The notes below the pieces were generated by a model that was not told the DNA's origin, did no database searches, and saw only the letters and a program-made list of their open reading frames with translations. This document shows, piece after piece, positions 27,428 through 64,000 of a DNA stretch of 64,000 nucleotides; within the stretch, counting starts at the first letter, position 1, and each line of letters begins with the position of its first letter. The DNA is from Microbacterium saccharophilum (GTDB taxonomy: Bacteria > Actinomycetota > Actinomycetes > Actinomycetales > Microbacteriaceae). The translations under genes were made by a program, and so were the position numbers. The stretch is from contig NZ_BKAH01000002.1 in the NCBI RefSeq assembly GCF_007992455.1, positions 1-64,000 on the forward strand. Reading direction: 5' to 3'.

Positions 27428-28963
27428 ATGTCTGAACTGACTTTCCGCACGCTCGGCGTGCCCGCCCCGCTCCTCGAGGTCCTCGCCGCCGACGGCAAGA
27501 CCTCCCCGTTCCCGATCCAGGCCGACACCCTCCCCGACACCCTCGCCGGGCGCGACGTCCTCGGCCGCGGCAAGACCGGCTCGGGCAAGACCCTGGCCTT
27601 CTCGATCCCGATGGCTGCACGCCTCGGCGGCGCGCTCGCCGGCGGCTCGCGCCGCCAGGGCCGCATCCTCGGCCTGATCCTCGCCCCGACCCGGGAGCTG
27701 GCGACGCAGATCAACGCCGTCCTCGCGCCGATGGCCGCGGCCTACGGCCTCAAGACGACGACGATCTTCGGCGGCGTGAACCAGAGCCGCCAGGTCGCCG
27801 CGCTCCAGGCCGGCGTCGACATCGTCGTGGCCTGCCCCGGGCGCCTCGAGGACCTCATGAAGCAGCGGTACGTCTCGCTCGACGCCGTCGAGATCACCGT
27901 CATCGACGAGGCCGACCACATGGCCGACCTCGGATTCCTCCCCTCGGTCACCCGCATCCTGGACAAGACCCCCCGCGACGGCCAGCGCATGCTGTTCAGC
28001 GCGACGCTGGACAACGGCGTCGACAAGCTCGTAGGCCGCTTCCTGCAGAACGAGGTCCTGCACTCCGTCGACGAGGCCAACTCGCCGGTCGCCGCCATGA
28101 CGCACCACGTGTTCCACGTGGAGGGCGCCGATGCCAAGAAGGAGCTCGTCCGCACGCTCGCGTCCGGCACGGGCCGCCGCATCCTGTTCATGCGCACGAA
28201 GCACCACGCCAAGAAGCTCGCGCAGCAGCTGACCGCGCAGGGCATCCCGTCCGTCGACCTGCACGGCAACCTGTCGCAGCCGCAGCGCGACCGCAACCTC
28301 GCGGCGTTCTCGACCGGGGCCGCCCGGGTGCTCGTCGCGACCGACGTCGCCGCCCGCGGCGTGCACGTCGACGACGTCGAGCTCGTCATCCACGTCGACC
28401 CGCCCATGGAGCACAAGGCGTACCTGCACCGCTCCGGCCGCACCGCGCGCGCCGGCGCCGAGGGCTCGGTCGTCACGCTCGTGCTGCCCGGCCAGGAGAA
28501 GGACGTCAAGGACCTGCTCCGCAAGGCCGCGATCACGGTCACGCCCGTCCGCGTCACCGCCGAGTCGGCCGAGGTCGCCGACCTCGTCGGCGAGGTCGCC
28601 GCGTACGTCAAGCCCGTGCCGAAGGCCGAGCCGCAGCGCGGTGGCGGCCGGAGCCAGGGCGCGAACGCGCAGCGCAAGCGCGCTGCGCGCGAGGGCCAGG
28701 GCGGCGGCGGACGCGGCCAGGGTCAGGGCGGCCGTGGTGGTGCTGCCCGCACCGACCGCTCGGGTCGCCCCGCGGCATCGGGTCGCCCGGCGGCCTCCGG
28801 CCGTCCGGCGGAGCGTTCGCACGCCGCGGACCGTCCCGCCGCGCAGCCCGCGGCATCCGGCAACGCCCGCACGGCGGGTCGCCGCGCCAGCCACGGCGGC
28901 GGTGGCCTCACGGTCGGATCGGTCGTGCGCCAGAACGGCGGCAACCGCCGCGGCGGTCGCTGA
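27428..28963 (+). CDS. DEAD-box ATP-dependent RNA helicase
   Basis: RNA helicase of 511 residues for unwinding structured RNA in translation or ribosome assembly. Motifs in order: FPIQ (Q motif), GKTGSGKT, PTRELA, VIDEADHMADLGF, LFSATLD, ARVLVATDVAARGVH and YLHRSGRTARAG. The C-terminal 100 residues are basic and Gly/Arg/Ala-rich (GRGQGQGGRGG), an RNA-binding tail. The ATG at 27428 matches the usual family N-terminus (MSELTFRTLGVP); an in-frame GTG at 27371 lies inside the leader. A strong hairpin follows the stop. Confidence 0.93.
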   Translation: MSELTFRTLGVPAPLLEVLAADGKTSPFPIQADTLPDTLAGRDVLGRGKTGSGKTLAFSIPMAARLGGALAGGSRRQGRILGLILAPTRELATQINAVLAPMAAAYGLKTTTIFGGVNQSRQVAALQAGVDIVVACPGRLEDLMKQRYVSLDAVEITVIDEADHMADLGFLPSVTRILDKTPRDGQRMLFSATLDNGVDKLVGRFLQNEVLHSVDEANSPVAAMTHHVFHVEGADAKKELVRTLASGTGRRILFMRTKHHAKKLAQQLTAQGIPSVDLHGNLSQPQRDRNLAAFSTGAARVLVATDVAARGVHVDDVELVIHVDPPMEHKAYLHRSGRTARAGAEGSVVTLVLPGQEKDVKDLLRKAAITVTPVRVTAESAEVADLVGEVAAYVKPVPKAEPQRGGGRSQGANAQRKRAAREGQGGGGRGQGQGGRGGAARTDRSGRPAASGRPAASGRPAERSHAADRPAAQPAASGNARTAGRRASHGGGGLTVGSVVRQNGGNRRGGR

Positions 28964-29009: not shown

Positions 29010-29227
29010 TTCGTCGTTCCCGGGTGGGACCGGGGCGGGCTCGGCGGCGGCCCCGGGTGAGGGGGATCTCTTGGTTCGCCCGCGCCGAATGGGGGGTGTG
29101 CGGGGCCGCGACCCGCACTTTGGCGCGGGCGAAACGCGGGGATGCTGTTCGCCGGCGCCGAATCGCGGGTGCGGGGCGTGGGGACCCGCACTTTGGCGCG
29201 GGTGAAGATCCGAGGGGGGGAGGGGGG

Positions 29228-29300
29228 AGTCGCAGCCTGGGCCTTGGAAGTTGCCTGCGGGGGCTCGAGGTGGCACGGCGCGCCTCGCGGCCGCGATGTG
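29228..29300. repeat. 73-bp block, copy 1, inside the palindrome array
   Basis: This block begins AGTCGCAGCCTGGGCC and is repeated at 29621-29693 with a single mismatch. Both copies follow the motif GTGAAGATCCGAGGG, so a segment of the array was duplicated. It is the same length as the array period but unrelated in sequence to the 45-bp element. Confidence 0.85.
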
Positions 29301-29620
29301 GCGCAGGTGAAACACGGGGATGCCGTTCGCCCGCGCCGAATGGCGGGTGCGGAGCATGGGAACCCGCACTATGGCGCCAGTGAAGTTCGAGGACGCCGTT
29401 CGTCCGCGCCAAATGGTGGGTGTCGGGCGCGGCGACCCGCACTTTGCCGCGGGCGAAGTTCGGGGATGCTGTTCCCCGGCGCCGAATCGCGGGTGCGGGG
29501 CATGGGGACCCGCACTTTGGCGCGGGTGAAGTTCGGGGACGCTGTTCGCCGGCGCCGAATCGCTGGTGCGGGGCGTGGGGACCCGCACTTTGGCGCGCGT
29601 GAAGATCCGAGGGTGGGGGG

Positions 29621-29693
29621 AGTCGCAGCCTGGGCCTTGGAAGTTGCCTGCGGGGGCTCGAGGTGACACGGCGCGCCTCGCGGCCGCGATGTG
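29621..29693. repeat. 73-bp block, copy 2, inside the palindrome array
   Basis: Second copy of the block at 29228-29300, differing at one base (GGTGACACG against GGTGGCACG). Confidence 0.85.
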
Positions 29694-30030
29694 CGCTCGT
29701 TCGTCCGCGCCGAACGGTGGGTGTCGGGCGCGGCGACCCGCACTTTGGCGCGGTCGAAATACGGGGATGCCGTTCGACCGCGCCGAACGGTGGGTGTCGG
29801 GCGCGGCGACCCGCACTTTGGCGCGGGTGAGATTCGGGCTGCCGTTGGCCGGCGCCGAATCGCGGGTGTGCGGCGCCGCGACCCGCATCTTGGCGCGGGC
29901 GAAACACGGGGATGCTGTTCGCCGGCGCCGAATCGCGGGTGCGGGGCACGGGGACACGCAATTTGGCGCGGGCGAAACGCAAGGATGGTGAACCCCGCGC
30001 TGCAGCCCAGACCAGCCTCACCCTCCGGGG

Positions 30031-31719
30031 TCAGCGACCGCGGCGGATGAGGTCGGCGGCGACCTCGCCGATCACGATCGCCGGGGCGTTCGTGTGGCCG
30101 CGGATGACGGTCGGCATGATCGACGCGTCCGCGACCCGCAGGCCCGTGACGCCGCGGACGCGGAGCTCCGGATCGACCACGGATGCCGCATCCCGCCCCA
30201 TCCGGGCGGTCCCGACCGGGTGGTACAGGGTGTGCGAGTAGCGTCGCAGCGACAGCTCGATGCGCTCGTCGGCCGACATCCGCTCGCCGCCGACGGGCAT
30301 GACCCAGCCGCCCGTCGTCACGGCCGCGAGCGCCCGCGTCGCGATGAGCCGCTCGCACTCCTCGAGTCCCTCCCGCAGGGTCCGCTCGTCGATCCCGTCC
30401 GGGTCGCTGAGATACCCCGGGTCGATGAGCGCGGCCGCCGCAGGATCCGCCGACGCCAGACGGATCGTGCCGCGACTGTGCGGCCGGAGCAGGATCGCGG
30501 CGACCGTGAGCCCCTCGGCCGGCAGCGGCACGAGGCCTTCGCCGACGTACGGCGCCGCGGCGAAGAGGATCTCGACGTCCGGCAGCCCCGCGCCATGCCC
30601 GGCCTCATCGGCCAGCGGCGTCCGGATGAACCCGTACGCCTCCGCGACGTTCGAGGTCAGCATCCCGCGGCGCTGCGCGAGGTATCGCGCGAGTTCGACG
30701 GCGCGTTCCGCGCCGAACAGCGTGCCGCCGCGCGCGGCCGGCGCGAGCCCCGCGACGAGGTGATCCTGCAGGTTCGCGCCGACGTCGGGTGCGTCCACGA
30801 GCGTACGGATGCCGTGGGCGGCGAGGTGCTCCGCCGGGCCGATGCCGCTCAGCATGAGCAGCTGCGGCGTGTTGATCGCCCCGCCGCTCAGCACGACCTC
30901 CCGCCGCGCGTTGACCTCCCGCACCACGCCGTCGAGCTCGAGCTCGACGCCCGTCGCGCGCGGGACGTCGCCAGATGCGTCGAAGAGCACCCGCCGCACC
31001 AGCGCCCCCGTCACGACGCGGAGGTTCCGGCGTCGCCGCGCGGGGCGCAGGTACGCGTCCGCCGTCGAGGCCCGCGCGCCGCGACGCTGCGTGACCATGG
31101 TCTGCGAGAACCCCTGCCCGGACGGAAGGTTCGCGGCCGTCACCTCGTGGCCCAGCTCGCGGGCGGCGTCGAGGAACGCCGCCGTCTGCGGCCGTGGATG
31201 CCGCTGATGCTCGATCGCCTGTGCGCCGTCGAGGCCCTGGCTCGGGTCCGCGGCATCCTGCGTGCGCTCGACCCGCCGGAAGTACGGCACGAGCGCGTCC
31301 CACGACCACGCATCGCCGGCGATAGTCGCCCACTCGTCGTAGTCCGCCGCGAAGCCGCGCACCCACATCATCGCGTTCAGCGACGACGATCCGCCGAGGG
31401 TCTTGCCGCGCGGCCAGTACACGCGCCGGCCCTCGAGCGCCGGCTGCGGCTCGGTGTCGTAGTTCCAGTCGTACACGCCGCGGAAGAGCTTGGAGAACGC
31501 CGCCGGGACGTGCAGCTCGAGCGCCCGGTCGGGCGGACCGGCCTCCAGGAGCAGCACCGAGACGGCCGGGTCCTCGCTCAGCCGTGCCGCGAGCGCCGCC
31601 CCGGCCGATCCCGCGCCGACCACGATGACATCGGCATCGCACGCCCGGTCCCGAGCCCCGTCCCAGGCCCCATCCCGCGCCCCGTCCCGCGCACCCCCGC
31701 GCCCCCGTACCCGGCTCAT
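30031..31719 (-). CDS. GMC-family FAD oxidoreductase (choline/alcohol dehydrogenase-like)
   Basis: A 562-residue GMC flavoenzyme oxidising an alcohol. The FAD loop DVIVVGAGSAGAALAARLS, signature 1 GKTLGGSSSLNAMMWVRG, signature 2 GGAINTPQLLMLSGIGP, the catalytic His in YHPVGTARMG and the Asn in GHTNAPAIVIGE are present. It resembles choline dehydrogenases, but the substrate is not certain. The ATG overlaps the stop of the upstream aldehyde dehydrogenase gene (ATGA). About 28 residues precede the FAD loop and are built from a 12-base repeat encoding GARD/GAWD, unusual for the family. Together the two enzymes could take an alcohol to its acid. Confidence 0.9.
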   Translation of the reverse strand: MSRVRGRGGARDGARDGAWDGARDRACDADVIVVGAGSAGAALAARLSEDPAVSVLLLEAGPPDRALELHVPAAFSKLFRGVYDWNYDTEPQPALEGRRVYWPRGKTLGGSSSLNAMMWVRGFAADYDEWATIAGDAWSWDALVPYFRRVERTQDAADPSQGLDGAQAIEHQRHPRPQTAAFLDAARELGHEVTAANLPSGQGFSQTMVTQRRGARASTADAYLRPARRRRNLRVVTGALVRRVLFDASGDVPRATGVELELDGVVREVNARREVVLSGGAINTPQLLMLSGIGPAEHLAAHGIRTLVDAPDVGANLQDHLVAGLAPAARGGTLFGAERAVELARYLAQRRGMLTSNVAEAYGFIRTPLADEAGHGAGLPDVEILFAAAPYVGEGLVPLPAEGLTVAAILLRPHSRGTIRLASADPAAAALIDPGYLSDPDGIDERTLREGLEECERLIATRALAAVTTGGWVMPVGGERMSADERIELSLRRYSHTLYHPVGTARMGRDAASVVDPELRVRGVTGLRVADASIMPTVIRGHTNAPAIVIGEVAADLIRRGR

Positions 31720-42904: not shown

Positions 42905-42977
42905 TGGCTCCGACGGGCGTCGATCCCGTGACCTCACGATTTTCAGTCGTGCGCTCTACCAACTGAGCTACAGAGCC
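42905..42977 (-). tRNA. tRNA-Phe (GAA)
   Basis: 73 bases without encoded CCA. The acceptor GGCTCTG pairs with CGGAGCC with one mismatch; the D-arm GCTCAGTTGGTAGAGC, an anticodon loop CTGAAAA with GAA, and GATCGACGC in the T arm are present. It is last in a three-tRNA transcript. Confidence 0.95.
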
Positions 42978-43048
42978 GAGCGGCATCCGAAGAATGTCAC
43001 TCCCGAGACGAAGGGCCCTTCTCGATGAAAAGGGCCCGTCGCTCGAAG

Positions 43049-43122
43049 CGACCCTGACGGGACTTGAACCCGCGACCTCCGCCGTGACAGGGCGGCACGC
43101 TAACCAACTGCGCTACAGGGCC
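43049..43122 (-). tRNA. tRNA-Asp (GTC)
   Basis: 74 bases, acceptor GGCCCTG/CAGGGTC, D-arm GCGCAGTTGGTTAGCGT, anticodon GTC in the loop between CCGCC and GGCGG, and T-loop GTTCAAGTC. CCA is not encoded. Confidence 0.95.
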
Positions 43123-43148
43123 ATGCTTATTCAGTTGTGTGGAAAGGG

Positions 43149-43221
43149 TGACCCCAACGGGATTCGAACCCGTGCTACCGCCGTGAAAGGGCGGCGTCCT
43201 AGGCCGCTAAACGATGGGGCC
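43149..43221 (-). tRNA. tRNA-Glu (TTC)
   Basis: 73 bases, acceptor GGCCCCA/TGGGGTC, anticodon TTC in the loop between CCGCC and GGCGG, T-loop GTTCGAATC. It is first of the Glu-Asp-Phe cluster, an arrangement common in actinobacteria. Confidence 0.95.
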
Positions 43222-60190: not shown

Positions 60191-60244
60191 GACGGATGCC
60201 GGTGGGCTGACGCTGCGCCTCGGGCGGTGCGCCCCGGTTCGACC

Positions 60245-60362
60245 GCGCCACAGTGCGGGTGTGCGGTGCCACGACCCGCGCTTCGGCGCGGTTGAAATCC
60301 GCGCCGAGTGTTCGTGGGCGCCGAAGTGCGGGTGCGTGAGCCGCCCACCCGCAGTTCGGCGC
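60245..60362. repeat. Second palindrome array: two 45-bp elements
   Basis: Elements at 60245-60289 and 60318-60362, each 45 bp, separated by 28 bp, exactly the geometry of the ten-element array at 29082. The second has arms GCGCCGAAGTGCGGGT and ACCCGCAGTTCGGCGC, with a single mismatch over 16 bases, and a 13-base centre. The array fills the gap upstream of the DUF559 gene (60191-60470), where no CDS is seen. Confidence 0.88.
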
Positions 60363-60470
60363 GGGTGAACCCTGCCCGTGGCCCTCTGCACAGCTGGGGA
60401 GTCGCGCGGACTCGGGTGTCGGGGCTGTGGAGAGCCGGAGAGAACGGCATCCCGGCGGCACCGTTGAAGG

Positions 60471-61418
60471 ATGCTGCGCAGTTCCCTTCCCGTCGATCTC
60501 GGCGAATCGTTCTCCACGGCCGCGGCGCTCGCCGCCGGCGTCAGCCCGTCGCGACTGCGATCCCTCGACCTGCTCCGGCCCTACCATGGCGTCCGGACGC
60601 GCAGTCCGCGCGATATCGAGCCGGAGCGGTCGGCGGAGCTCCTCCTGCTCGACCGGATGCGACAGTACGCCGAGCGGATGCCGGCCGCGCAGTTCTTCAC
60701 GCACGTGGCTGCGGCTGCGGCCTGGTCGATCCCCCTGCCGCTGAGCGTGGTCGTGGGGAGGCCCATCGACGTCGGTGTGTTCGCGCCGCATCGCGCGCCC
60801 GCCGGGCGCGGGGTGATCGGCCATGCCGTGAAGCCCTGCCTGGCGCATACCGTCATCCATCCGGCACTCGGCTTGCCGGTGACGACGCCGGCATCCACGT
60901 GGGCGATGCTCGGCGGCCTGTTGTCACGCGTCGAAGACGTCGTGGCGGCGGCCGATGCCGCACTGCGGCTGCCGATGCACACCGACGACCCGCCGGCGCT
61001 CGCCACGAGGCCGCAGCTGGAGGCGGCGCTGACGGCGGGGCGGCGCCGGGGCGCCGCGCTCCTCCGCGAAGCGCTGCCCCGGGCGATCGCGCGGTCGCGC
61101 TCGCGCCCGGAGACGTGGATGCGACTGGTCATCGTGGATGCCGGGCTGCCCGAGCCGCACGCGAACCTCGACGTGTTCGACGCAGGCGCCTGGCTCGCGC
61201 AGGTCGATCTCGCCTATCCGCGGCACAAGCTCGCGATGGAGTACGAAGGCGATCATCATCGGACGGATCCCCGGCAGTGGGCGGTCGACATCCAGCGCGT
61301 CGAGCGCCTTGCCGAGGCGGGCTGGCGCGTCATCCGCGTCACCCGCGAGGACATCTTCGTGCAACCGTCGCAGTTCGTTGCCCGCGTGCGGCGCGCGCTG
61401 GGCGAGGCCCGGCGCTGA
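60471..61418 (+). CDS. DUF559/Vsr-like endonuclease-fold protein
   Basis: A 315-residue protein. The first 100 residues recall the AbiEi-antitoxin-like N-termini found in this family. The C-terminal part has the DUF559/Vsr-like core: PETWMRLVIVDAGLPEPHAN, then QVDLAYPRHKLAMEYEGDHH, then DIQRVERLAEAGWRVIRVT. The Asp, Glu and Asp/His positions of a PD-(D/E)xK-type site are present, so it may still cut DNA. GAAGG directly abuts the ATG, so the start is not secure. Palindromic 45-bp elements flank it on both sides (60245-60362 and 61451-61640). Confidence 0.82.
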   Translation: MLRSSLPVDLGESFSTAAALAAGVSPSRLRSLDLLRPYHGVRTRSPRDIEPERSAELLLLDRMRQYAERMPAAQFFTHVAAAAAWSIPLPLSVVVGRPIDVGVFAPHRAPAGRGVIGHAVKPCLAHTVIHPALGLPVTTPASTWAMLGGLLSRVEDVVAAADAALRLPMHTDDPPALATRPQLEAALTAGRRRGAALLREALPRAIARSRSRPETWMRLVIVDAGLPEPHANLDVFDAGAWLAQVDLAYPRHKLAMEYEGDHHRTDPRQWAVDIQRVERLAEAGWRVIRVTREDIFVQPSQFVARVRRALGEARR

Positions 61419-61450
61419 CATCCTCTTCGTCGCAGGCCCGAACGTCACCC

Positions 61451-61640
61451 GCGCCGAATGGTGGGTCATGGCCCGCGCCACCCGCACTTCGGCGCGGCTG
61501 AACCCGAGGCCCCTGCTTCGGCCGCGCCATGTGGCGGGTGTGAGGGCGCGCGACCCGCGCTTCGGCGCGGATGAACCGGGGCCCGGTCTTCACCCGCGCC
61601 GAATCGTGGGTCATAGCGCGCGGCACCCGCACTTCGGCGC
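61451..61640. repeat. Third palindrome array: three 45-bp elements
   Basis: Elements at 61451-61495, 61524-61568 and 61596-61640, each 45 bp, with spacers of 28 and 27 bp. Arms match GCGCCGAA-NN-GNGGGT and ACCCGC-NN-TTCGGCGC. They fill the gap between the DUF559 gene and the convergent XRE regulator; no CDS is visible there. Confidence 0.88.
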
Positions 61641-61676
61641 AGATGAACTCCTGCGCCCCCGCGCCTGGCGCGCCGC

Positions 61677-62894: not shown

Positions 62895-64000
62895 ATGTTC
62901 GAGAGATTCACGGATCGTGCCCGTCGTGTGGTCGTCCTCGCCCAAGAAGAGGCGAAGATGCTCAACCACAACTACATCGGCACGGAGCACATCCTGCTCG
63001 GTCTCATTCACGAGGGCGAGGGTGTCGCCGCCAAGGCGCTGGAGTCGCTGGGCATCTCGCTGGACGCCGTCCGCGAGCAGGTCCAGGACATCATCGGCCA
63101 GGGCCAGCAGCAGCCGACCGGCCACATCCCCTTCACGCCGCGGGCGAAGAAGGTGCTCGAGCTGTCGCTGCGCGAAGCGCTGCAGCTGGGCCACAACTAC
63201 ATCGGCACCGAGCACATCCTGCTCGGCCTGATCCGCGAGGGCGAAGGCGTCGCCGCGCAGGTGCTCGTCAAGCTCGGCGCCGACCTGAACAAGGTGCGCC
63301 AGCAGGTCATCCAGCTGCTCAGCGGCTACCAGGGCAAGGAGCCCGCAGGTGTCGCGACCGGCGCCGGCGAGCAGAACCAGCCCGCCCAGGGCGGCTCGGC
63401 GGTGCTCGACCAGTTCGGCCGCAACCTCACGCAGGCGGCGCGCGACAACAAGCTCGACCCGGTGATCGGGCGCGAGAAGGAGATCGAGCGGGTCATGCAG
63501 ATCCTCTCGCGTCGCTCCAAGAACAACCCCGTCCTCATCGGCGAGCCCGGCGTCGGCAAGACCGCCGTCGTCGAGGGCCTCGCGCAGGCGATCGTGAAGA
63601 ACGAGGTGCCCGAGACCCTGAAGGACAAGCAGGTCTACTCGCTCGACCTCGGCTCGCTCATCGCCGGGTCCCGCTACCGCGGTGACTTCGAGGAGCGCCT
63701 GAAGAAGGTCACCAAGGAGATCCGCACGCGCGGCGACATCATCGTCTTCATCGACGAGATCCACACCCTCGTGGGTGCCGGTGCCGCCGAGGGCGCGATC
63801 GACGCCGCCTCGATCCTGAAGCCGCTGCTCGCACGCGGCGAGCTGCAGACGATCGGCGCGACCACGCTCGACGAGTACCGGAAGCACTTCGAGAAGGATG
63901 CTGCGCTGGAGCGCCGCTTCCAGCCGATCCAGGTGGCCGAGCCGAGCCTCCCCCACGCGATCAACATCCTCAAGGGCCTGCGCGACCGGTACGAGGCGCA
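62895..64000 (+). CDS. clpC: Clp protease ATPase subunit ClpC, 5' part
   Basis: N-terminal 368 residues of an AAA+ unfoldase that feeds ClpP; the gene runs past the window end. Two Clp_N repeats are visible, each with the [14 protein letters not shown] core. The first AAA domain has Walker [16 protein letters not shown] (near residue 217) and Walker [23 protein letters not shown] precedes the ATG. No CtsR or mcsA gene lies upstream, as usual in actinobacteria. Confidence 0.97.

Follow-up and report, generated by a model that had tools for sequence, protein, structure and literature searches.

The DNA sites of AbiEi-family proteins provide the nearest described parallel to the repeats that are the subject of the current report. 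In the cited passages of PMC7319586, the operator of the AbiEi-family protein Rv2827c is made up of four 23-bp inverted repeats that form two pairs, with 13 bp within each pair and 4 bp between the pairs, and that of S. agalactiae AbiEi is made up of two 23-bp inverted repeats 3 bp apart; a 13-bp gap is found in one of these two characterised operators, that of Rv2827c. Another parallel lies in the REP and REPIN sequences, which together with the RAYT transposases make up the REPtrons (PMC3116915, PMC6006769 and PMC3733652, as excerpted), and for which the excerpted text of PMC6006769 describes a gene with palindromes of its own on either side, dispersed copies, doublets and lineage-specific sequences. 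A further one is the EDxHD/Vsr homing endonuclease I-Bth0305I, which binds as a dimer to a target that is nearly 60 bp long (PMC3943268, in the part cited).

We describe here a family of palindromic elements in a stretch of 64,000 nucleotides from Microbacterium saccharophilum (positions 1 to 64,000 of contig NZ_BKAH01000002.1, assembly GCF_007992455.1), to be referred to as the window, together with the copies of these elements elsewhere in this genome (G000 in our own numbering of genomes) and in its relatives. Since the 23-13-23 geometry of the elements matches the published operator of Rv2827c, and since the product of a gene in the same window is predicted to have an AbiEi-like fold, we consider it probable that the elements are AbiEi-type operators bound by the AbiEi-nuclease fusion protein encoded at 60471-61418, binding being deduced from this geometry and fold. 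We attach much less confidence to any one role for the dispersed copies. An earlier note on this DNA had dealt with a ten-element array in the window, and the link to a nuclease in the same window is a point that was absent from it.

The likeness to the AbiEi-family operators extends to the 23-bp inverted repeats, the 13-bp gap (as in Rv2827c), a fold that resembles AbiEi and the tandem arrangement of the pairs, which are separated by 4 bp in the cited passages on Rv2827c and by 14 bp here, one turn more. The differences are that the operators described in those passages belong to the promoter of the gene for the protein that binds them, an antitoxin with a toxin partner, whereas the present protein has a nuclease domain and the sites are found at both ends of its gene and dispersed on the chromosome. 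With the REPtrons, as far as the excerpted accounts go, the elements share a dispersed placement between genes, the occurrence of doublets and a dedicated gene with its palindromes on either side; they differ in that the enzyme is not a Y1/HUH transposase, the consensus has no GTAG foot, the arms behave as double-stranded half-sites, and the length is 59 bp in most copies. I-Bth0305I resembles the system in its nuclease fold (Z 12.8) and in its dimeric binding to a target of nearly 60 bp, but it is phage-derived, and the cited part of its description mentions neither dispersed copies of the target nor an AbiEi-like N-terminal part. What appears to be new is the pairing of an AbiEi-Vsr nuclease with dispersed sites, the component folds each being known; a search of PMC full text, which leaves most subscription journals and all preprints outside, found no paper on such a pairing of nuclease and palindromes. 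The enzyme tied to REP repeats in the papers cited is RAYT, and here a repeat with a similar life-style is linked to an unrelated nuclease. The match in geometry, which is our strongest ground for calling the elements operators, makes of an enigmatic repeat a system whose parts have names and can be tested in vitro.

Geometry of the elements

The array that the earlier note had reported lies between a DEAD-box helicase gene (27428-28963, plus strand) and a GMC oxidoreductase gene (30031-31623, minus strand), which form a convergent pair. All ten of its elements are present as described there, each with a 45-bp core (a 16-bp arm, a 13-bp centre and a 16-bp arm), and these cores start at 29082, 29155, 29333, 29406, 29479, 29552, 29707, 29780, 29852 and 29925. 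The nine start-to-start intervals are, in order, 73, 178, 73, 73, 73, 155, 73, 72 and 73 bp, that is, six of 73 bp, one of 72 bp and two longer ones (178 and 155 bp). When given at 61 bp each, on the plus strand, the elements occupy 29074-29134 (paired core 59 bp, 45-bp core 29082-29126), 29147-29207, 29325-29385, 29398-29458, 29471-29531, 29544-29604, 29699-29759, 29772-29832, 29844-29904 and 29917-29977. Each of the two long intervals contains one copy of an 83-bp segment (29218-29300 and 29611-29693, with no strand assigned), the two copies being 98% identical; this segment, which is of no recognised kind, breaks the 73-bp period twice. The array is not the sole one, as two more lie in the same window at 60237-60370 and 61443-61648. 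A CRISPR array was rejected, in agreement with the earlier note, on the grounds that the elements diverge, that the spacers inside the array are short and resemble one another, and that the neighbours are a DEAD helicase and a GMC oxidoreductase. Integron attC sites, which are 59-base elements, were also considered and were dropped because the polarity of their end motifs differs.

The repeat unit had previously been taken to be 45 bp with a 28-bp spacer. The length of the core and the 73-bp period hold, but alignment with the five other copies in the window indicates that pairing extends outward to TTC...GAA, so that the full palindrome is 59 bp long, TTC-N14-GYGGRT-N13-AYCCRC-N14-GAA (23-bp arm, 13-bp centre, 23-bp arm), or 61 bp with the next position, and the spacer between whole palindromes is therefore 14 bp and not 28. 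The spacers, which had been called conserved, are indeed alike inside the array; from locus to locus, the sequences of both spacers and centres diverge and it is their lengths that are kept.

Among the matches listed for this genome, 91 of the 98 elements are exactly 61 bp long, 45 of the 71 spacings between neighbours are 73 bp and three are 72 bp, and a frequent arrangement is the doublet (61+12+61). A scan of seven genomes in which the centre was left free (5-23 bp) found a 13-bp centre in 197 of 205 elements, the others being five 12-bp copies in genome G020 and single copies with 10, 11 or 12 bp; a scan of 0.70 Mb of shuffled sequence with the arm profile gave no matches. The five palindromes of G020, which are related, form an array at L045:4018-4485 with a 12-bp centre and a period of ~82 bp, between homologues of the genes that flank locus L023 of G000.

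Spacings other than 72 or 73 bp (n = 39 after removal of repeats within loci) tend to differ from 73 bp by whole helical turns (pooled V-test p 0.002 for a turn of 10.4 bp and 0.008 for 10.5 bp), with a direction-free Rayleigh p of 0.013-0.030. By genome, the V-test p is 0.0025 in G000 and 0.006 in G087, and the phasing is absent in G321 (mean cosine -0.11), one of the three genomes tested. In a free scan of periods, a peak at 9.55 bp stands slightly above one at 10.35 bp, the length of the turn being poorly fixed by these data. The 13-bp centre of nearly all elements and the phasing of the spacings to 73 bp support a protein-binding platform. A platform for a nucleoid protein had been among the earlier suggestions, and the fixed centre, the lack of covariation described below and the phasing in two of three genomes speak for the binding part of it, so that the suggestion holds in part.

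The two arms of an element were compared for covariation by taking one element per cluster, scoring Watson-Crick pairing and permuting the right arms. Pairing of arms with their own partners was not above that of permuted arms in any of four genomes, also when G-U pairs were allowed: the values were 0.768 versus 0.801 permuted in G000 (with 1000 of 1000 permutations at least as high), 0.770 versus 0.775 in G321, 0.740 versus 0.758 in G087 and 0.697 versus 0.708 in G008. For the 15 elements of the window, 496 of 500 shuffles paired equally well or better. By eye, two types of arm can be distinguished, AAGTGCGGG and AATGGCGGG, and an element often has one of each, a mixture that would explain the deficit of pairing in G000. 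Because the arms do not covary, we read them as the half-sites of a double-stranded site, with one protein subunit per arm; they look like copies of one consensus sequence rather than the two sides of a hairpin.

These results also bear on the idea that the elements are bidirectional terminators or RNA-processing hairpins at the ends of genes, which we hold to be highly unlikely. Six 61-base single strands that were folded proved to be very stable (z -3.2 to -5.1), and 84 of the 85 clusters in seven genomes are intergenic, with no more than 7 of the 85 between divergent genes, as such a role would lead one to expect; the covariation that an RNA structure would be expected to leave is missing, however, with G-U pairs counted as well, the fixed centre and fixed period argue in the same direction, those 7 divergent clusters exist nonetheless, and at the gathering score Rfam matches nothing in the window but three tRNAs. 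The missing covariation led us to reject an RNA hairpin or terminator; the transcript-end processing structure suggested in the earlier note is not supported. The three tRNA genes (42905-43221, minus strand) have no relation to the arrays.

The nuclease gene and its flanking palindromes

The two other arrays of the window lie on either side of a gene at 60471-61418 (plus strand) for a protein of 315 aa, which we propose as the cognate protein of the elements. Upstream is a doublet (60237-60297 and 60310-60370, plus strand), the second element of which ends 101 bp before the start of the gene, and downstream is a triplet (61443-61503, 61516-61576 and 61588-61648, plus strand), which begins 25 bp after the stop. 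The neighbours of the gene in the window encode a PLD-family protein and a Cro/C1-type HTH protein; we take the gene that begins at 62895 to be Lhr-like, from its size alone.

The protein is predicted to combine the fold of a DNA-binding antitoxin of the AbiEi type with that of a homing-type nuclease (Vsr/EDxHD), with an AbiEi-like part that consists of a winged-helix and a nucleotidyltransferase-like domain (residues 1-205) and a Vsr/EDxHD-type nuclease domain at about 209-315 (Pfam MTES_1575/DUF559). An AlphaFold2 model built from 79 sequences has a mean pLDDT of 95.2. In this model, residues 211-315 superimpose on the catalytic domain of I-Bth0305I (3r3p) with a Z of 12.8 (rmsd 2.5, 96 residues) and on Vsr bound to DNA (1cw0) with a Z of 11.1, and the protein in this respect has the Vsr-like catalytic domain of the EDxHD homing endonucleases. 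Residues 2-206 of the full model superimpose on the whole length of AbiEi with a Z of 8.4 (rmsd 6.1, 177 residues) and on Rv2827c with a Z of 7.1. When the N-terminal 205 residues were modelled alone, AbiEi (6y8q) was the top match, spanning both domains with a Z of 10.4 (rmsd 6.2, 175 of 195 residues), the MenT1 toxin matched with a Z of 8.3 that covers the second domain only, and Rv2827c (1zel) gave a Z of 7.7, which is below 8 (rmsd 4.0, 181 residues); it is on 6y8q and 1zel that the assignment of an AbiEi fold to the candidate cognate protein is based. Foldseek by itself places the nuclease part first among the meaningful matches (3r3p, E 0.019) and gives no PDB match at E <=0.001 and no AbiEi among the 50 matches listed. 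The AbiEi part is almost invisible by sequence, Pfam AbiEi_4 being matched by 1 of the 79 relatives (E 0.066), and a profile search of solved structures yielded weak matches (E 0.47 and 0.54, the second being 3r3p); NCBIfam and PADLOC gave no informative match. Residues E214, H263 and D273 are invariant in the 79 sequences and D246 is nearly so, and, to judge from the EDxHD name, these four would form the active site.

Relatives of the nuclease were drawn from the best 80 of 332 encoding stretches (named records, chiefly of Microbacteriaceae). Matched palindromes were found on both sides of 31 of these 80 nuclease genes. For the other genes in these loci the count was 1 of 275, and for those not adjacent to the nuclease it was 0 of 156 (Fisher 1e-21 and 3e-17, respectively, uncorrected for relatedness). 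The 31 flanked genes represent 21 types of palindrome, and 49 of the 80 have no matched pair at the setting used. Palindromes of any kind, matched or not, lie near 68 of the 80 nuclease genes, 119 of the 275 others and 35 of the 156 non-adjacent ones; the figures of 75/80 and 47/80 from a more permissive scan were set aside because palindromes of that quality are common (298 in 680 kb). As regards the REPtrons, a dedicated gene flanked by its own repeats is a trait that this comparison (31/80 versus 1/275) finds here too, and as regards the AbiEi operators, a site 5' of an AbiEi-family gene is found in the window, as the doublet, and as palindromes before many of the relatives, in what would be the promoter.

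The palindromes beside these genes have a common architecture. We profiled 32 unrelated, non-redundant palindromes beside nuclease genes, from a scan that reported lengths of 45-63 bp. Mean pairing by end-to-end length is 0.38-0.47 up to 13 bp, 0.56-0.69 at 14-19 bp and 0.78-1.00 over 20-59 bp, and it falls to 0.47 at 60-65 bp; this drop after 59 bp precedes the 63-bp limit of the scan, which does not favour lengths above 63 bp. The outer lengths of the single palindromes range from 39 to 90 bp, with 20 of the 32 in the range of 56-65 bp. Inverted repeats of 23 bp with a fixed short gap are thus indicated by the 59-mer pattern, the free-gap scan and the profile of the 32 palindromes.

In G008, G087 and G134, the orthologue at the same chromosomal address is flanked by elements left and right; in G321 it has them on one side, where the other side is near the end of a contig. 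A relative at another address, in G005, has that genome's own palindrome on both sides. We inspected 40 stretches round nuclease-type genes from eleven genomes, with tblastn for the key ones. In G070, G192 and G214, the relative is flanked on both sides by the multi-copy palindrome of its genome; in G181 and G360 this palindrome is present on one side, and the other has remnants of arms or a weaker palindrome. In G191 (L190), a palindrome of the AACCGCGGC type lies to one side, and the relative beside it looks interrupted, its N-terminal part and its nuclease domain being in separate open stretches. No multi-copy palindrome was found beside the nuclease-type gene in any of 13 stretches from G271 (3), G080 (4), G027 (3) and G136 (3), which represent part of such genes in these genomes; some of them hold much longer proteins that have the C-terminal domain alone in common. 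A further relative in the genome of the window (contig C7) has no family palindrome nearby.

Several observations were made alongside. At the same address in G165 (L090:3981-4703), a single palindrome precedes a diverged relative (32% identity, E 5e-12) that the gene finder had not called, and the loss of the gene from G165, which we had considered, was dropped on this account. G017 was rejected as a cognate case because the domain match lies in an open frame of 1485 aa with which no relative of the fusion protein aligns. Other nuclease-type genes of the same genomes (L191, L199 and L224) have private palindromes, that of L191 being ~61 bp long and present on both sides. In G087 (L049:4680-5567), elements lie on both sides of a gene for a 295-aa protein that has no Pfam match and, by blastp, no similarity to the nuclease.

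Among 56 proteins, the closer two are in sequence, the more alike are their palindromes (Mantel rho 0.30, 0 of 500 permutations), and no region of the protein stands out in this correlation. A palindrome is shared by at most 1% of the pairs with less than 50% protein identity, by 39% of the 36 pairs at 60-70% and by about three quarters of the 20 pairs above 70%, so that the relatives constitute a naturally occurring set of paired proteins and sites. Of the 80 loci, 21 retain one or more neighbours of the window locus (the PLD-family gene, the HTH gene or the gene at 62895), yet several different palindromes occur among them: the address is inherited while the sequence of the site changes.

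Dispersal of the elements and their inheritance in place

With genes called by a codon-usage gene finder and a covariance model built from the 15 copies in the window, we count at least 98 elements at 27 places in the window and 20 other stretches of this genome, among the matches listed. Within the same set, all 27 places but one fall between genes, the flanking genes being convergent at 10 of these 26, co-directional at 14 and divergent at 2; the exception is a weak intragenic match (E 8e-4). In G087 and G008, the two closed genomes in which dnaA was located, the origin half holds 18 of the 22 listed clusters (11 of 13 and 7 of 9 per genome; p 0.002, an optimistic value since the two share some inherited positions), and in G000, for which 26 clusters are listed, 1.48 Mb of contigs are without a cluster (7 of 20000 random draws were as extreme). 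Such biases are what one might look for in chromosome-organising sites of a nucleoid or segregation protein that has nothing to do with the nuclease. We regard this as very improbable, however, as the sequence of the site differs by lineage in step with the nuclease gene, a pattern that would not follow from a general nucleoid protein, and as 343 of the 366 genomes of the genus are without an exact match to the pattern; the closed genomes moreover share positions, so that their bias is not independent, and for the clusters listed in G000 a chi-square over the (unordered) contigs shows no significant departure (2737 of 20000).

The 59-bp pattern given above is found in 23 of the 366 Microbacterium genomes (0 for the pattern read backward), in some of them as a single match, and not every match need belong to the family. 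A sequence-specific covariance model, blind to lineages whose arms read differently, detected the family in 14 of 59 genomes of the genus. A looser pattern matched 42 of the 366 genomes and also caught a 45-bp stretch that is conserved and present a single time in each of many genomes, has no TTC/GAA ends and is probably unrelated and coding. The part of the arm that adjoins TTC is genome-specific yet palindromic: it reads ACTTGTCGC in G070, AACCGCGGC in G191 and GGTCGCGCC in both G181 and G214. In G027 (L046), the frame TTC...GCGGAT-13-ACCCGC...GAA is kept with arms of TGTCCA, and none of the three nuclease-type genes looked at there adjoins that sequence. Curtobacterium has a different palindrome, in 1-8 exact copies in 7 of 8 genomes; two groups of these are spaced 71 and 72 bp apart and have elements of 57 and 58 bp, which amounts to a 14-bp spacer again. 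The earlier note had named an occurrence of the elements here alone, or lengths varying freely in relatives, as grounds for doubting a functional array; the relatives have elements of the same length, often in the same gap between genes, and it is the number of copies that varies.

Many of the places are shared between species. Of the 26 clusters in G000, 19 have a cluster in another species between genes that are homologous on both sides (a hand count over selected stretches, in which two clusters of G000 correspond to one of G321). The number of copies varies at an orthologous place, from ten in G000 to one in G008, where the single element is bordered by a homologue of the DEAD-box helicase gene (27428-28963). 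Loops of G000 and G321 are more similar between orthologues (0.64, 13 pairs) than between non-orthologues (0.51, 156 pairs; p 0.0004), and loops are closer within a locus than between loci. From the shared places and the similarity of loops we conclude that arrays are inherited in place and grow locally.

It is against this background that REP- or REPIN-like mobility should be weighed, in which the elements would be mobile hairpins that fold in single-stranded DNA and are copied by a dedicated enzyme, with the nuclease in place of RAYT. The flanking of a gene by its own palindromes, the dispersed intergenic copies, the doublets and the lineage-specific sequences all match the REPtron description in the excerpted text of PMC6006769, and the dispersal bears out that much of the REP-like family proposed in the earlier note. 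We nevertheless think this somewhat unlikely. The arms do not covary within genomes (in four genomes the pairing does not exceed that of permuted arms, so that a repeat selected as a hairpin was not found), a hairpin needs neither a fixed 13-bp centre nor phased spacing, and many copies are at orthologous places with loops closer between orthologues (p 0.0004), which argues for inheritance in place. A search for the Y1 transposase (PF01797), which rings in 5 of 14 control genomes, found none in this genome, and no Y1 (HUH) transposase is linked to the repeats. Membership in the REP/RAYT system was rejected on the two counts of the arms that do not covary and the absence of RAYT.

The copies might also be neutral by-products without a role, grown by slippage and recombination from the operator of the nuclease. 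The wide variation in copy number at orthologous places (10 in G000, 1 in G008) and the duplication of the 83-bp segment within the array would fit with such an origin, but lengths are kept while the sequence diverges and the same places are kept across species, which points to selection on the copies and makes this explanation, in our estimation, improbable.

We therefore return to the AbiEi-type operators and to what they might do. Each element would be a double-stranded operator with two inverted 23-bp half-sites across a fixed 13-bp centre, most likely read by the product of 60471-61418 with one winged-helix monomer per arm, and neighbouring elements at 73 bp (~7 turns) would face the same way. 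At its own gene, the protein would occupy sites upstream of the start and behind the stop and probably repress the gene. The copies elsewhere, at ~24 further intergenic places and with up to ten in a row, would serve as docking sites that bind, and perhaps titrate, the nuclease. Arrays would gain and lose elements through local duplication at places that stay fixed, with breaks made by the nuclease domain possibly driving both copying and growth, while the sequence of the site would have been swapped repeatedly between lineages along with the protein as the geometry stayed. The copies may titrate the nuclease, restrain it or be the product of nuclease-driven copying; if the sites restrain the nuclease, the chromosome would be marked as self in a manner that is new.

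More tentatively, and with somewhat more doubt than conviction, we suggest that these loci belong to an undescribed actinobacterial class of enzyme and repeat, namely of AbiEi-Vsr fusion nucleases that each have a private operator of ~59 bp on both sides of the gene, which in some lineages has been seeded chromosome-wide. The site would be swapped repeatedly at one fixed address, as in a selfish or defensive arms race, and the nuclease may spread its sites by break-and-copy or may cut foreign DNA while the sites at home restrain it.

One place in this genome illustrates how genes and elements can differ between relatives. At L025:13239-14171, a gene with a weak match to APH-type phosphotransferases sits between two doublets; the matching place in G321 has one doublet and no APH-type gene, so that the gene and a doublet have been gained or lost together.
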